Below, piece after piece: positions 37,497 through 43,433 of a DNA stretch of 64,000 nt (position 1 is the first letter of the stretch; each line of letters starts with the position of its first letter). A model generated the notes under the pieces. That model ran no database searches. It saw only the letters and a program-made list of their open reading frames with translations, and was not told where the DNA came from. The DNA is from Polynucleobacter sp. 71A-WALBACH (GTDB taxonomy: Bacteria; Pseudomonadota; Gammaproteobacteria; Burkholderiales; Burkholderiaceae). Both the position numbers and the translations under genes were made by a program. The stretch covers positions 186,001 to 250,000 of the forward strand of contig NZ_JACVOP010000002.1 of the NCBI RefSeq assembly GCF_018882365.1, read 5' to 3'.

Positions 37497-40400
37497 ATGA
37501 AATATTTAAATAAATCACAATCGTTTTTTGTCGCAGTATTTTTTACTTTGATATTGGTGGTCTATGCACCCATATCATTGGCTGCGGGTAGTTGTGATAA
37601 CTATACCCCGGATGCGAATGGAACTACAGTCACCTGCAATCCAATAGGAACAACTTCAGCTGGAGTGATTTCTTCGCAAGGTAATACGGCGGCAGGAAAT
37701 AATGTCACCGTCAATATTAACCCTGGCACTTCAATTACAGTTAATGGTTCAACAGTGGGTATTGGAAGTGGTGCAAATGTAATAAATAATGGAGTCTTAA
37801 ATACCAGCTCCTTTTATTACGGATACGGGATCTCTTCGGGTATAAATGGTAGATCTCAGGCTGGTGGCAGCACTATTACTAATAATGGTTCGATTGTGAC
37901 AAATGGTATTAATGCATCAGGTATCACGATTAGCTCTACCAATGCCAGTTCAGCGGCAAACACCATCATAAATGCGGGGACGATATCAACCAGCGGTAGA
38001 GGGGCAAATGGTATTGAAGTGGAAAATGGTGGAGCAATTACGGCGATCAATAACTCTGGCACGATTGCTGCAGCGGGGATGCTGTCAAACGGAATACAAG
38101 TCAAAGGCGCTGCAAACATCATCAATTCTGGAATTATTTGTCCGTCAGGAATCTTGTCTGGCTCCTGTAATCCGCTAACTACTGGTAGTGGTAACGGAAT
38201 TCAGATTGACAATAATGCAAACAGTAATCGAACCACAATTACTAATACAAGCACGGGATTGATTGGCGCTCCAACATCATCTTATTACGCGATCTACAGT
38301 GCTCAACAGCCAGGAGTGGATGTTTATAACTATGGCAGAATTCTTGCTGCTAGCGTCTCTGACACTGCGATCAATTTTGCCGGCTCAACAAGCGGTGGCT
38401 CTAACAACACAGTAACTCTATATGGTGGCTCAACATTATTGGGTGGAATTAGTTTTAATAAAGGTAATACACAAGAGACTCTGACATTCAGCGGGTTCGC
38501 CAATGCTAACTTTAATAATGCATTAACTGGCTTGAATGTAATCAATGCAACAAATTCTTCAAATGTAGTCTTAAATAGCGCTTCAGGATATGAGCTTGTC
38601 GCGGGACGTATCAATATTGATGGAACATCGACACTGCGAATAAGTTCTACAATTCAGGATCAAGCTAGCCCTACTGCAGTCGCTACCTTAATCTCTAAAA
38701 TTGGTGCTGGCACCTTAACTCTCTCTGGTGCTAATACCTATAGCGGTGGCACTAGCTTAAATGCCGGCACGATTGCTGTGGGTAACAACACAGCACTCGG
38801 TACCAGTGGTTTAGCGATGGCTAATGCCACTACCTTACAGGCTGCTTCATCAGTTGCTTTAGCCAATGCCGTAAGTGTTGCTGCTACCTCTATAGTAGAT
38901 ACCAATGGAAATAACCTAGGGTTATCGGGAGTCATCTCTGGAGCAGGCTCCATAAACAAAGTAGGCGCTGGCACCTTAACTCTCTCTGGTGCTAATACCT
39001 ATAGCGGTCCTACAAATATCAATGCAGGCAGTCTAATTTTGACGGGCTCCCTGGGTTCAGCTGCAACGACTACTGTTGCATCAGGTGCGATATTGCAAGG
39101 AGGGGGCATCATAAACGGGAGTGTAAATAATGCGGGAAATATTGAACCTAGTTTTTTAGGGATTCCAACCCAATTAACAATCAATGGAAATTATGTTGGC
39201 AATAATGGCAACTTCACAACTAATGTATGGGGGCCTAATACGAGTCCAATAGCCGATACTTTAAAAATTGGCGGAGGGGCTTCAGGCTCAACTGGCATAA
39301 CAGTAGTTGATAAGGGTGGTCTAGGTAATCGCACCACTGGTGATGGTATTCAGGTGGTACAAGTTAATAGTAGCAATGGCTCCACTTCAAATGCCTTTGC
39401 TCTAAATCAACGTGTTGCCTCTGGTGCATTTGAGTACCAGCTAGTTAAAGGCCCAGCAACTGGATCAGGAAATTCTTGGTATTTAAGAACAGATAATCCA
39501 GCTGAGCCCGCTAGTGTTTTAGTTGCAGCCCCAGCCATTCCCATTACTCCTGCTGTGGGAGAGCGTATAGAGGTATCTGTTTATCCAGCACTACCTTCTT
39601 TAATGCAGCTCTATGCGCAGACTGCTGTTGATACATTGGATCAACGCCGTGGCGACCTCAATCTGGTTGATCCAGGTTCCTTGAGCCAGAATAAATCTAA
39701 TGACTGGGCACGCATTATTGGAAAGACTGGATCTTCAACGCCATCCAATATTAATGATGGGCCTAAATTGAACTTTAATGCATACGCCTTACAGTTCGGT
39801 GTTGATCTGTATAAGAATGAAGAGCTCGCTGGATCACGTTCATACATAGGTCCATATGTCACGATTGGTGGTGCTAACGGAAATACTTCCAACCAAGCAG
39901 GCACGACATCAACTGGTAATCTTAATGGCATGCAGGCGTATTCATTGGGCTTATATGGAACTCATTTTGCGGAAAATGGTTTATATGTTGATGCATTGGC
40001 ACAGGGCTCCAGGTACCTGAACGCGAGCGCAAGCTCGGTTCAAGGTGCTGGATTAAAAACACAGGGTTCTGGTTTTACGGGATCACTTGAGACGGGCGGA
40101 CGCTGGAATTTAACGGAGAAGTTTTTAATCTCTCCTCAAGCTCAAATTGTTTATGATGCTATCGGCATGAATAACGCCAGCGATGCATATGGCCAAATAA
40201 ACTTTAACAAGAGTGAGATTAGTCGCGGACGCGTGGGAATATTAGGTGGTCATAAGGATACCGTTGGAAATACTCCTATCTTTGCTTATCTACGCGCAAA
40301 CTACTGGTCTGTATTTAATGCTGGAACCAGTACCACCTTCCAATCACTTTATGGCGTCAATCCCCTCACCTTCCAATCTCAAACTGGATCTCGTTGGTTG

Positions 40401-40532
40401 GCTTTGGATGCTGAGGTAAATGCAAGGATTACTAAGTCAACGAATCTCTTCTTGAACCTTGGCTGGGAAAATTCTCTAGTGGGAACTTACCAGGCGATAT
40501 CAGGCAGAGTGGGCTTACAAACACGTTTCTAA
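37497..40532 (+). CDS. Autotransporter (type Va secretion) with beta-strand repeat passenger
   Basis: A 1011-residue surface protein. It has a signal peptide (about 1-29, ending ISLA), a long passenger rich in Asn, Ser, Thr and Gly that should form a beta helix, and a C-terminal autotransporter barrel (about 735-1011) ending in Phe, as barrels do. The passenger carries two copies of the autotransporter-associated beta-strand repeat (GAGTLTLSGANTYSG) near residues 404 and 491. Passengers of this type are usually adhesins or are uncharacterised; no protease motif is seen. No clear ribosome site precedes the ATG. It stands alone, divergent from mscS. Confidence 0.88.
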   Translation: MKYLNKSQSFFVAVFFTLILVVYAPISLAAGSCDNYTPDANGTTVTCNPIGTTSAGVISSQGNTAAGNNVTVNINPGTSITVNGSTVGIGSGANVINNGVLNTSSFYYGYGISSGINGRSQAGGSTITNNGSIVTNGINASGITISSTNASSAANTIINAGTISTSGRGANGIEVENGGAITAINNSGTIAAAGMLSNGIQVKGAANIINSGIICPSGILSGSCNPLTTGSGNGIQIDNNANSNRTTITNTSTGLIGAPTSSYYAIYSAQQPGVDVYNYGRILAASVSDTAINFAGSTSGGSNNTVTLYGGSTLLGGISFNKGNTQETLTFSGFANANFNNALTGLNVINATNSSNVVLNSASGYELVAGRINIDGTSTLRISSTIQDQASPTAVATLISKIGAGTLTLSGANTYSGGTSLNAGTIAVGNNTALGTSGLAMANATTLQAASSVALANAVSVAATSIVDTNGNNLGLSGVISGAGSINKVGAGTLTLSGANTYSGPTNINAGSLILTGSLGSAATTTVASGAILQGGGIINGSVNNAGNIEPSFLGIPTQLTINGNYVGNNGNFTTNVWGPNTSPIADTLKIGGGASGSTGITVVDKGGLGNRTTGDGIQVVQVNSSNGSTSNAFALNQRVASGAFEYQLVKGPATGSGNSWYLRTDNPAEPASVLVAAPAIPITPAVGERIEVSVYPALPSLMQLYAQTAVDTLDQRRGDLNLVDPGSLSQNKSNDWARIIGKTGSSTPSNINDGPKLNFNAYALQFGVDLYKNEELAGSRSYIGPYVTIGGANGNTSNQAGTTSTGNLNGMQAYSLGLYGTHFAENGLYVDALAQGSRYLNASASSVQGAGLKTQGSGFTGSLETGGRWNLTEKFLISPQAQIVYDAIGMNNASDAYGQINFNKSEISRGRVGILGGHKDTVGNTPIFAYLRANYWSVFNAGTSTTFQSLYGVNPLTFQSQTGSRWLALDAEVNARITKSTNLFLNLGWENSLVGTYQAISGRVGLQTRF
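38706..38747 (+). repeat. 42-bp direct repeat, copy 1 (inside the autotransporter gene)
   Basis: This 42-base stretch is identical to 38967-39008. It encodes AGTLTLSGANTYSG of the first autotransporter-associated beta-strand repeat. The two copies are 261 bases apart, exactly 87 codons. Confidence 0.95.
38967..39008 (+). repeat. 42-bp direct repeat, copy 2 (inside the autotransporter gene)
   Basis: Identical to 38706-38747, in the same reading frame. Identity at third codon positions points to recent duplication or gene conversion, and recombination between copies would delete 87 codons in frame. Confidence 0.95.
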
Positions 40533-40540
40533 TGTAGTGT

Positions 40541-41098
40541 TTACTGGGCTGCAAGTCTTCTAGCCTCAGTAAACCTAGCTGCCCAGTAGGGCGTAGTAAT
40601 GAACTCCAAGCGCACAGTTCCACCCGCGCTTGGGGCATGCACAAATCTACCTTGCCCAACATAAATCCCTGCATGTGAATACTTTTCACCAGTAGTGTTG
40701 AAGAAAATCAGATCACCTGGAGCTGGTGGTTGATTCTCTACGCTTTGACCTTTGGTACTCATTTCTTGAATGGTGCGCGGCAGCTTAATATTGGCTGACT
40801 TGTTGTAGACATAGGCAATCAATCCACTACAGTCAAATCCACCCTTGGGATTATTACCACCATAGCGATAGGGCACCCCAACTAAGCCTACCGCAGCAAT
40901 CGAAATATCTTCGGTGCCCACGCTAGTATCTTGTTTGAATTGGGCAACTTTGGCTGCATTATTTTTTGCGCTAAAGGTGCTGCACCCCGATAGTGTTAGC
41001 AGGGCGCAAATAAAAATGCCGCACCCCATTAGAGTGCGGCATGACAAGGTTTCCTTAGAGTGCGTCAGCAGCATGATCCGCAAGGCGTGAACGCTCAC
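40541..41098 (-). CDS. NlpC/P60-family lipoprotein (peptidoglycan endopeptidase)
   Basis: A predicted cell-wall peptidase. The NlpC/P60 domain (about 70-180) has the catalytic Cys in GGFDCSGLIAYVY, the His in YSHAGIYVG and a third polar residue in FVHAP. A lipobox LSGC lies near residue 39, so the protein should be anchored in a membrane. The start is uncertain: ATG codons at 41098, 41074 and 41029 are possible, the first inside phoH. The codons for the signal sequence overlap a terminator-like hairpin (41012-41042) that follows phoH. Function fits wall turnover, but the substrate bond is not known. Confidence 0.85.
   Translation of the reverse strand: MSVHALRIMLLTHSKETLSCRTLMGCGIFICALLTLSGCSTFSAKNNAAKVAQFKQDTSVGTEDISIAAVGLVGVPYRYGGNNPKGGFDCSGLIAYVYNKSANIKLPRTIQEMSTKGQSVENQPPAPGDLIFFNTTGEKYSHAGIYVGQGRFVHAPSAGGTVRLEFITTPYWAARFTEARRLAAQ
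41012..41042 (-). terminator. Terminator-like hairpin after phoH, inside the NlpC signal-peptide codons
   Basis: On the minus strand ATGCCGCAC (41042-41034) pairs with GTGCGGCAT (41024-41016) and runs into TTTTTATTT. It begins 13 bases after the phoH stop. It looks like the phoH terminator yet lies within the 5' coding region of the next gene, where it may act as an attenuator. Confidence 0.75.
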
Positions 41099-42731
41099 CG
41101 CGAGCTAGTGTCACGTGTCCGCCATGACGCCAGCCTTTAAAGCGATCCACCACATAAGTAAGGCCCGAAGAGCCTTCAGTTAAGTAAGGTGTGTCGATCT
41201 GGGCAATATTGCCTAAACAAACAATCTTGGTTCCTGGGCCTGCGCGAGTTACCAAAGTCTTCATTTGTTTAGGTGTTAAGTTTTGTGCCTCGTCAATTAT
41301 CACAAACTTACTGACAAAGGTTCTGCCACGCATGAAGTTCATGCTCTTCACTTTGATGCGTGAGCGAATCAGTTCCTGGGTTGCAGCACGCCCCCATTCG
41401 CCGGCGCTTCCATCTTCATTGCGTTGTAGTACCTCAAGATTGTCATCAAATGCACCCATCCAAGGCTGCATCTTTTCTTCTTCTGTACCTGGCAGAAATC
41501 CAATATCTTCACCAACGGGAACAGTAGCTCGAGTAATAATGATTTCGTTATAGCGTTTGCTGTCTAAAACCTGCTCAAGCCCCGCTGCTAAGGCCAGCAA
41601 GGTTTTACCAGTACCTGCTTGACCCAATAAGGTGATGAAATCCACATCTGGGTTCATCAGCAGGTTCATGGCAAAGTTCTGCTCTCGATTGCGAGCGGTC
41701 ACACTCCACACATTATTTTTCTGATGCGAGAAGTCCCTCAAGGTTTGGAGGAGAGCGGTCTTGCCGTTGATTTCTTTTACTTGAGCGTAGAACGGGGTAG
41801 AGCCATCTGGATTTTCTTGGTAGACGAATTCATTTACCAGCATGCTCGGAACTGAGGGGCCGGTTACACGATAAAACATCGTGCCGGATTTGCCATCAGC
41901 CCAACTTTCCATATCTTTGCCATGCTTTGGCCAAAAGTCCGCTGGTAAGGCCATCACTCCGGAATACATGAGGTCACGATCTTCTAAGACTTGATCGTTA
42001 AAATAATCTTCCGCAGGTAGACCTAATGCGCGAGCCTTGATACGCATGTTGATATCTTTAGATACCAAAACTACTTCCTGGCCTTTGCGCGTCTTTTGCA
42101 ATTCACTCACAACAGCAAGGATCAGGTTGTCACCTTTGCCTTCAGGCAATCCCTCTGGTAATGCTTGAGTTGTTAGTTTGGTTTGGAAAAAGAGTCGACC
42201 AGATACATCTTGATTGCCAAGCTTATTCAGTGGGATTCCATCATCAAGTGTGCCGCTAGTACCAGCCACCAATTGATCTAAGGAGCGACTAACCGTACGA
42301 GCATTACGTGCAACCTCAGTCATCCCCTTTTTATGGTTATCTAATTCCTCTAGGGTGGTCATCGGCAGGAAAAGGTCATGTTCAGAGAAGCGGAACAAGG
42401 AACTTGGATCATGCATCAATACATTGGTGTCGAGTACAAATAAGCTGGGTGGGCCAGTGCGAATAATGCGTTTCGGTTTATCTGGAATGCTCGCTATCTT
42501 CTTATCGCTACGTTCATGAGGCACTGCTACTGGTCTACGATCCCCTTTGATTTTTTCCAGGGCTACTTCAGCCGCAGATAAATCCTCTTCTGCGTCTGTC
42601 GCCCAATCTGGCGCATGACTCTCCATCACAACAGTTTTTGCTGGGGCGGGGCGCTTTTTTAGATTGGGCGTGTCTTTACTGCTAATTTTTACTTGGCCAG
42701 CAATTTGAGTTGGGATTGGGGGCAATGGCAT
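41055..42731 (-). CDS. phoH: PhoH-family protein with PIN domain (PhoH2 type)
   Basis: A fusion of a PIN nuclease domain (about 95-230, FVLDTNVLMHDP) and a PhoH ATPase (about 315-555) with Walker A GQAGTGKTLLALA and Walker B FVIIDEAQNL. PhoH2 proteins of this design have RNase and RNA-helicase activity in actinobacteria; a role in RNA metabolism here is inferred from that. The ATG at 42731 has an AGGAG ribosome site and gives 558 residues. An upstream start at 42761 would run through a terminator. The gene is preceded by a structured RNA and terminator that may control it. Confidence 0.93.
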   Translation of the reverse strand: MPLPPIPTQIAGQVKISSKDTPNLKKRPAPAKTVVMESHAPDWATDAEEDLSAAEVALEKIKGDRRPVAVPHERSDKKIASIPDKPKRIIRTGPPSLFVLDTNVLMHDPSSLFRFSEHDLFLPMTTLEELDNHKKGMTEVARNARTVSRSLDQLVAGTSGTLDDGIPLNKLGNQDVSGRLFFQTKLTTQALPEGLPEGKGDNLILAVVSELQKTRKGQEVVLVSKDINMRIKARALGLPAEDYFNDQVLEDRDLMYSGVMALPADFWPKHGKDMESWADGKSGTMFYRVTGPSVPSMLVNEFVYQENPDGSTPFYAQVKEINGKTALLQTLRDFSHQKNNVWSVTARNREQNFAMNLLMNPDVDFITLLGQAGTGKTLLALAAGLEQVLDSKRYNEIIITRATVPVGEDIGFLPGTEEEKMQPWMGAFDDNLEVLQRNEDGSAGEWGRAATQELIRSRIKVKSMNFMRGRTFVSKFVIIDEAQNLTPKQMKTLVTRAGPGTKIVCLGNIAQIDTPYLTEGSSGLTYVVDRFKGWRHGGHVTLARGERSRLADHAADAL

Positions 42732-42745
42732 GCAGACTCTCCTAA

Positions 42746-42781
42746 AAGAAAAAACCGTCAAGCGGATTGCATTGACGGTTT
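42746..42781 (-). terminator. Intrinsic terminator directly upstream of phoH
   Basis: On the minus strand AAACCGTCAA and TTGACGGTTT form a ten-base-pair stem with a ten-base loop, followed by a run of Ts. The run ends only a few bases before the phoH ribosome site. It could end the bcp transcript, end a separate small RNA, or attenuate phoH. Confidence 0.88.
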
Positions 42782-42904
42782 ATAACGAAACTGGGTGTAA
42801 AACGATCTGTAAAACGGCGGGGGTTGTTTACCGAGCCTGTTCTTAAATATTCAGGCTGATGAGTCAAACGGATTGTTAGACTTTCCCGTCGTTTACGGTG
42901 CATA
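42782..42904 (-). ncRNA. Candidate structured RNA or phoH leader (three-way-junction-like)
   Basis: On the minus strand a long stem joins 42885-42896 with 42809-42821 (one bulge, one mismatch). It encloses two hairpins, 42862-42882 (AGTC/GACT) and 42834-42857 (AGCCTG/CAGGCT), so the fold looks like a three-way junction. A promoter lies just upstream and a strong terminator just downstream. The 13-base string at 42863-42875 recurs with one change at 42757-42769 in the terminator, so alternative pairing is possible. I match it to no known RNA family. Confidence 0.5.
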
Positions 42905-42910
42905 GGAACA

Positions 42911-42938
42911 ACTTTACCCCAAATTTTGGGCTTTGCAA
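42911..42938 (-). promoter_or_regulatory. Candidate promoter of the phoH leader RNA
   Basis: On the minus strand TTGCAA (42938-42933) and TAAAGT (42916-42911) are separated by 16 bases. The spacer is almost filled by the inverted repeat CCCAAAATTTGGG, a possible operator. The predicted start, near 42904, is just before the structured RNA. It lies between the bcp stop and phoH. Confidence 0.5.
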
Positions 42939-42965: not shown

Positions 42966-43433
42966 TTAGTTGGCGGCTTGGGCGGCTTGTAATACCTCTG
43001 TCACATGTCCCGGAACCTTAAGGCCACGCCATTCTTTAACGAGTTTGCCTGAGGAGTCAAAGAGGAAGGTGCTGCGCTCAACGCCACGCACCTGTTTGCC
43101 ATACATATTTTTTAACTTCATTACGCCAAAGAGTTGGCAAAGAGTTTCTTCGGTATCGGCAACAAGTTCAAATGGCAGCTCAAGTTTGCTGCGGAAATTG
43201 TCATGGGATTTGAGGCTATCTCGGGATACGCCAACGATCAGGGTATTGGCTTTGGTAAAAGCCTCAATGTTGTCCCGAAATTCACCAGACTCGGCTGTGC
43301 AACCAGGAGTCATATCTTTTGGATAAAAGTAAATGACCAGTTTTTTGCCTTTGGCTGAATCTGGCGTAAAGGTTAATCCCGAGGTTGCTGGGATGGCGCA
43401 CTGGGGCATTGATTTACCAATTTCTACTGTCAT
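42966..43433 (-). CDS. bcp: Thioredoxin-dependent peroxiredoxin (Bcp/PrxQ)
   Basis: Bcp reduces hydrogen peroxide and organic peroxides in the cytoplasm. The 155-residue protein has the peroxidatic Cys45 in DMTPGCTAESGEF. The common resolving Cys five residues later is replaced by Gly50. Cys99 (ETLCQLF) or Cys12 might serve instead, or the enzyme may be of the one-Cys kind. It lies 48 bp after arnD on the same strand and could be the tail of the arn transcript. The following 184 bp hold the candidate RNA and promoter. Confidence 0.93.
   Translation of the reverse strand: MTVEIGKSMPQCAIPATSGLTFTPDSAKGKKLVIYFYPKDMTPGCTAESGEFRDNIEAFTKANTLIVGVSRDSLKSHDNFRSKLELPFELVADTEETLCQLFGVMKLKNMYGKQVRGVERSTFLFDSSGKLVKEWRGLKVPGHVTEVLQAAQAAN

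Follow-up and report, generated by a model that had tools for sequence, protein, structure and literature searches.

A predicted leaderless reading frame spans the terminator ahead of phoH in Polynucleobacter and may act as a translation-coupled attenuator

In the window, the 64-kb stretch of Polynucleobacter DNA analysed here, the gene phoH lies on the minus strand behind a 155-aa reading frame of the same strand, which we take to be bcp, the label that an initial annotation of this DNA had given it from reading the sequence. The gap between the two genes carries a promoter, a short upstream ORF (the leader ORF) and an intrinsic terminator placed within that ORF. From upstream to downstream, the features are as follows.

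42966..43433, minus strand: bcp, the upstream neighbour, a 155-aa ORF
42933..42938, minus strand: TTGCAA, -35-like hexamer of the phoH leader promoter, read in the sequence
42918..42930, minus strand: inverted repeat CCCAAAATTTGGG in the promoter spacer, conserved only in part
42911..42916, minus strand: TAAAGT, -10 hexamer, separated from TTGCAA by a 16-nt spacer, with the leader ATG 7 nt further on
42742..42903, minus strand: upstream ORF of 53 codons, predicted leaderless, which passes through the terminator and ends at the TAG in the TAGGAG of phoH
42809..42896, minus strand: proposed three-way junction enclosing two hairpins, inside the ORF; genus-specific and partially supported
42896-42885 opposite 42821-42809, minus strand: closing stem of the junction, GTAAACGACGGG opposite CCCGCCGTTTTAC in the sequence
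42834..42857, minus strand: second hairpin, AGCCTG/CAGGCT, with paired changes seen within the genus
42744..42781, minus strand: intrinsic terminator inside the ORF, a hairpin (42779-42754) followed by the U-tract TTTTTTCTTTT
42739..42744, minus strand: TAGGAG, where the stop codon of the leader ORF overlaps the Shine-Dalgarno sequence of phoH
41055..42731, minus strand: phoH, encoding a 558-aa protein with PIN and PhoH domains, the gene proposed to be controlled

The leader ORF holds the proposed three-way junction, the terminator hairpin, whose 5' arm begins at nucleotide 123 of the ORF, and the U-tract, which begins at nucleotide 150. A string in the first hairpin, CAATCCGTTTGAC (42875-42863), is repeated as CAATCCGCTTGAC at 42769-42757, as read in the sequence. 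The initial annotation had described a candidate three-way-junction RNA with its own promoter and terminator, and the promoter, the inverted repeat in its spacer, the stem, the hairpins, the terminator and the repeated 13-base string are all present where it had placed them; the observation itself is confirmed as real. What it overlooked is the main feature of the locus, the leader ORF, which is the part kept across genera. A simple promoter and terminator scan of the window called neither the leader promoter nor the terminator; the cut-off for promoters was 9 of 12 consensus matches, and the leader promoter scores 8 of 12. A signature scan of the 64-kb window found the leader layout once, at phoH. 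Elsewhere in the window, positions 37497-40532 of the plus strand hold a 1011-aa ORF with repeated GAGTLTLSGANTYSG-type passages, which presumably resembles an autotransporter.

Of 151 genomes of the genus, 136 matched part or all of the region in a DNA search, and one locus was taken from each of 120 of these 136. The bcp-like and phoH-like matches adjoin in all 120 loci, the phoH match being weak in two of them (L119 and L120, E 0.03-0.04). The leader frame extends to the phoH start in 117 of the 120 loci, and in 112 the ORF stop lies at most 20 nt upstream of the phoH ATG; this count includes L102 and L106 (15 nt), which the automatic classing, giving 110, called premature when its looser rule took an earlier ATG. 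The stop codon falls within TAGGAG in 79 of 84 core genus loci. In five loci (L071, L072, L116, L119 and L120) the ORF continues beyond the phoH ATG, and in three of these, L116, L119 and L120, the ORF is present and the hairpin finder recognised no terminator in the gap. In L071 (genome G106) an extra T in the U-tract brings the leader ORF into frame with phoH, and a fusion is predicted. The ORF is broken in three of the 120 loci (L073, L074 and L078). The genome with L078 (G103) has a phoH pseudogene (L243), with a 126-codon frame from the start and a stop within the match, while the phoH match in the genomes with L073 and L074 has no stop, so that an intact phoH stands there beside a broken leader ORF. 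Six loci, L085-L088, L094 and L095, end the leader ORF not in TAGGAG but with a TGA directly before the phoH ATG. The same six have a GCCCCAATCTGGGGCTTTTTT-type hairpin between bcp and the leader promoter, which is probably the terminator of bcp itself.

The dedicated promoter before phoH that had been proposed, TTGCAA/TAAAGT, is confirmed in the sequence. When 108 genus loci were scored for a -35 element, 96 had one with at least four of six consensus matches. The inverted repeat in its spacer fared less well, being present in the window and equally good in only 46 of 84 loci. Across the 120 genus loci the leader ATG follows the -10 hexamer at a distance of 6-9 nt; of the 68 loci from other genera, 64 keep this distance at exactly 8 nt. 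None of the 120 genus loci has a Shine-Dalgarno match of at least 4 nt before the leader ORF, while phoH has a match of 5 nt in 119 and of 4 nt in one; among the loci of other genera, the leader ORF is without such a match in 67 of 68 and phoH has one in 55 of 68. Since the ATG stands 7 nt past the -10 hexamer in the window and no Shine-Dalgarno sequence precedes it, we predict that the ORF is leaderless. Passages of papers on B. cenocepacia (PMC4603805) and C. metallidurans (PMC7563307) document transcripts of this leaderless kind.

How the leader ORF has changed within the genus was followed on a tree of 84 genus loci, with 827 substitutions inferred in the ORF. Events creating an in-frame stop numbered 4, about five times fewer than the 20.8 +/- 4.6 expected when the same substitutions were relocated with site rates kept (the lowest of 200 runs gave 11); the variant with uniform rates expected 21.2 +/- 4.2. 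Three of the four events are parsimony artefacts that lead to sequences with open ORFs, and the breaks in L074 and L078 are absent from the stop events of this test. The two dead frames had 41 and 41 stop-creating events against 35.6 and 49.0 expected. A separate pair test found a broken ORF in 3 of 39 pairs, compared with 11.2 +/- 2.6 or 10.1 +/- 2.4 expected. Changes were spread evenly over the three codon positions (260, 287 and 280), and the pN/pS of the ORF frame was 0.75 (37 pairs), with 0.90 and 0.63 for the dead frames; purifying selection on the amino-acid sequence of the leader was not detected by either measure. Nor was a conserved run of regulatory codons found in codon-position rates or in the peptides across genera, which appear unrelated when compared by eye, and the leader peptide matched no Pfam family at E 0.001. 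The scarcity of stop-creating changes together with the even codon-position rates points to selection that holds the frame open and not the peptide, whose amino acids drift. The slow-changing parts of the region are the first 45 nt of the ORF and the terminator. This pattern fits a function in initiation and in hairpin formation, and it could also reflect RNA structure.

The RNA structure was assessed in the window and in an alignment of 46 non-redundant genus sequences. The 163-nt strand folds at -40.2 kcal/mol, compared with -28.2 +/- 3.4 for dinucleotide shuffles (z -3.5; better than 200 of 200), and its minimum-free-energy fold includes the stem of the three-way junction; the terminator alone folds at -13.5 kcal/mol (z -5.1). 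The initial annotation had also seen a strong terminator before phoH, and this hairpin is kept, with 96.2% of cells paired in the 46 sequences. The corresponding values are 91.3% for the second hairpin, in which one pair changes from GC to AU in 14 of 46, and 81.7% for the first hairpin. The junction and terminator had a covariation score above 500 of 500 shuffles, with changes on both sides at 9 pairs compared with 3.7 expected, a shuffle control that, by the tool's own warning, relatedness alone can pass without structure. The three-way junction gains from this covariation, but its closing stem is only 83.4% paired, one of the 11 pairs failing to form in 27 of the 46 sequences and another in 32, and a competing local hairpin has 97.8% of cells paired. 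The one antiterminator pairing considered, that of the first hairpin with the terminator arm, was not supported: all 5 pairs can form in 10 of the 46 genus sequences, and 4, 3 and 2 pairs in 22, 9 and 5, respectively. No equivalent of the junction was recognised by eye in other genera. On these alignments we would call the terminator the well-supported structure, and the other structure appears to be genus-specific.

The initial annotation knew of no described RNA at this site, and an Rfam search of the leader region agrees, with no family at the gathering threshold; the best match below it was rnk_leader (RF01771; 18.6 bits against a cut-off of 50, E 1.1), which resembles the phoH leader in ending in a terminator. 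A search of the plasmid collection gave no match. Two known Burkholderia small RNAs were considered and rejected as this RNA. According to passages of the respective papers, ncS35 sits between BCAM2068 and BCAM2069 (PMC5760752) and ncS21 between BCAL2737 and BCAL2738 (PMC4603805). We take the latter pair not to be bcp-phoH, since the title of a paper that names BCAL2737 concerns a glycosylated antigen (PMC7849680).

At wider taxonomic ranks, phoH was recovered from 187 of 200 genomes in the family and 148 of 150 in the order. The bcp-phoH gaps of other genera have the same layout, with a leader sequence that is unalignable. The non-genus set comprised 68 loci, 65 in the family and 3 in family f48; it excludes L158, L174 and L175, which are repeats or have a false phoH start, as well as L169 and L217, whose ATGs are probably wrong. 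The ORF stop lies at most 35 nt from the phoH ATG in 36 of these 68 loci. When one locus was drawn per genus, this was the case in 8-10 of 15 genera, compared with about 0.9 expected from dinucleotide shuffles (500 random draws, worst P 1.5e-6 if the genera are independent). The lowest-numbered locus of each genus gave 9 of 15 (P 1e-8), and a first set of representatives gave 10 of 15, having been chosen after the gaps were viewed (g24 was represented by L149, while its lowest-numbered locus, L146, misses). None of the 30 loci of g8, g10, g12, g20 and g25 has its stop within 35 nt of phoH. The bcp-phoH gaps of g2, g18 and g23, which are outside the 15 genera, showed no clear element.

The position of the ORF stop relative to the terminator was classed in 72 non-genus rows, in which one genome appears twice. 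The ORF stops at most 30 nt before phoH in 18 rows, runs beyond the phoH ATG in 4, and clears the terminator but ends short of phoH in 26, while the stop falls inside the hairpin in 4 rows (g10 loci) and before it in 3. The strict rule found no hairpin in the remaining 17 rows; in 16 of them the stop is no more than 25 nt ahead of phoH. The loci of g12 and g20 and most of those of g25 have the stop about 100-170 nt before phoH and yet beyond the terminator. The ORF is open through the terminator in 19 of 22 listed loci, a result that is weak alone as the chance in shuffles is 0.24-0.89 for each. In other genera the distance from the ATG to the T-tract is mostly between 54 and 185 nt. Four loci of other genera, L158, L162, L168 and L170, have in common a AAGGAGCYGATCGANNNCNAGGCGAACCGGC-form stretch between the terminator and phoH, and their leader ORF stops differ, falling within or after this stretch. 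At the level of the order, 33 loci outside the family were considered (L176-L200 and L233-L240). Nineteen were beyond the automatic rule, having no bcp match or no MPLP-type phoH start, and the layout was found in 3 of the 14 that could be classed, all in family f48.

What might a reading frame of this kind do ahead of phoH? We think it probable, at about 0.62, that the leader attenuates phoH transcription in a translation-coupled manner by means of a leaderless upstream ORF, and our best reading is that its logic resembles that of pyrBI while being leaderless and independent of the peptide sequence. Judging from the spacing of the -10 hexamer, the transcript would begin with the leader AUG or no more than about 2 nt away from it. 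A ribosome would load at this 5'-terminal AUG without a Shine-Dalgarno sequence and trail RNA polymerase. If the ribosome has caught up, it would cover the terminator hairpin and polymerase would continue into phoH; the ribosome would then stop at the UAG within the phoH Shine-Dalgarno sequence, from which it might be handed over to phoH. A failure of leaderless initiation, or a ribosome that falls behind, would let the hairpin form, and the only product would be a short RNA, about 160 nt long and lacking a stop codon. Read-through would be set by how promptly leaderless initiation occurs and by whether the ribosome keeps pace, and the conserved property would be the act of reading the leader, not its peptide. 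We infer the start site, the translation, the direction of control and the signal sensed from the arrangement of the sequence. Of the two options in the initial annotation, one was an attenuating leader, and to that extent the annotation agrees with this reading; the structured RNA that it proposed should give way to a predicted attenuator of phoH that is leaderless, coupled to translation and independent of the peptide.

Precedents for such a mechanism exist. Excerpts of two papers describe the suppression of intrinsic terminators by coupled ribosomes (PMC5021804, PMC4824070), and tight coupling across pyrL is needed to keep its terminator from forming, according to the former. Passages of PMC4824070 indicate that in E. 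coli the first ribosome has reached polymerase by about 100-200 nt, and that terminators located in the initial 100 bp of coding sequence are efficient despite translation. On our analysis the T-tracts of other genera would fall around this catch-up zone. Terminators in the wider genera are often within the first 60-150 nt, which is a point against attenuation, and the earliest count against it because the ribosome may come too late. Other points against it are the broken ORFs in 3 of 120 genus loci, the stops inside the hairpin (g10) or before it, the stops more than 35 nt from phoH in five genera, the ORFs of L116, L119 and L120 with no recognised terminator, and the lack of a clear element in g2, g18 and g23.

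A possible extension of the attenuator reading, which we regard as rather doubtful, is that the terminator is a gate that sorts transcripts by their 5' end and that phoH output reports how well the cell can initiate leaderless translation and couple ribosomes to polymerase, irrespective of the peptide. RNA from the phoH promoter would have a 5'-terminal AUG and be translated, which would open the terminator. In RNA reading through from bcp the AUG would be internal and without a Shine-Dalgarno sequence, and such RNA would presumably be untranslated there and stopped.

The leader ORF might instead serve translational coupling only, delivering ribosomes to phoH, while a leaky terminator that is insensitive to translation ends bcp transcripts. 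The stop within TAGGAG in nearly all core genus loci and close to phoH in about half of the non-genus loci is what such a role would leave behind, and L116, L119 and L120 retain the ORF at phoH without a recognised terminator, which favours coupling as a second function. As the sole function we consider it unlikely, for the most conserved structure is the terminator, which sits between the phoH promoter and phoH, where transcripts must cross it. Moreover, the ORFs of g12, g20 and most g25 loci end well short of phoH yet clear the terminator, and that ORFs falling short of phoH mostly do so favours control at the terminator over simple translational coupling. Less likely again is that the region is a structured attenuator or an independent small RNA in which RNA pairing, not translation, decides termination. 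The stability of the fold, the covariation within the genus and the slow change over the first 45 nt of the ORF are in keeping with this idea; the antiterminator is nevertheless complete in few sequences, two closing-stem pairs are gone in most, and an open frame is kept while the leader sequence is unrelated between genera.

Two further explanations seem to us very improbable. The leader ORF could be the gene of a functional small protein, which would account for a frame that stays open and seldom acquires a stop, but not for even substitution at the three codon positions, for a pN/pS lying between those of the dead frames, or for peptides that match no Pfam family and look unrelated across genera. 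Just as improbable is a switch based on non-stop mRNA, in which terminated transcripts need rescue by tmRNA and rescue capacity sets the output of phoH, as with arfA. A transcript ending in the U-tract would indeed be without a stop codon, and arfA has an intrinsic terminator within its ORF, as a passage of PMC10107115 describes; here, however, the peptide is not conserved, and the frame leads to phoH and is not itself the product.

Among known systems, the attenuator that we propose is most readily compared with that of E. coli pyrBI, in which an ORF (pyrL) and an intrinsic terminator share one leader, as described in excerpts of PMC5021804. As expected of the pyrBI type, the reading frame passes through the terminator in the window, and 117 of 120 genus loci reach phoH; unlike pyrL, the phoH leader ORF is predicted to be leaderless, and neither its peptide nor its codons are conserved. 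Attenuation at pyrBI also involves UTP-dependent pausing of polymerase within the leader. Attenuators of the trp/ilv type, including M. tuberculosis ilvB1 (passages of PMC13236596), likewise place an upstream ORF and an intrinsic terminator before the gene. Regulatory codons and an antiterminator are central to these systems, in which complete translation promotes termination, whereas the phoH leader is without conserved codons and its full translation should favour read-through. Judged by the title of the work alone, the leaderless cysteine-rich upstream ORFs of mycobacteria are also short leaderless ORFs that act as attenuators, but their sensor is a run of cysteines and the phoH leader has no conserved residue. 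The likeness to E. coli arfA lies in the intrinsic terminator inside a reading frame (PMC10107115, in part); arfA encodes its own product, while the phoH leader frame serves another gene. A comparable phoH leader was not described in any paper that our literature search found.

If the attenuator reading is true, the family would possess a regulatory ORF whose sole conserved property is its readability, and such an ORF would be a natural measure of leaderless initiation and of how closely ribosomes couple to polymerase. Its signature, a leaderless ATG, an in-frame terminator and a stop at the Shine-Dalgarno sequence of the next gene, could be used in searches elsewhere, and it is one that gene finders and RNA-family searches are both prone to miss. 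PhoH2 is reportedly treated as a helicase-RNase, and to our knowledge the physiological role of the PIN-PhoH protein encoded by phoH is unsettled. The leader described here would provide phoH with a concrete regulatory input.
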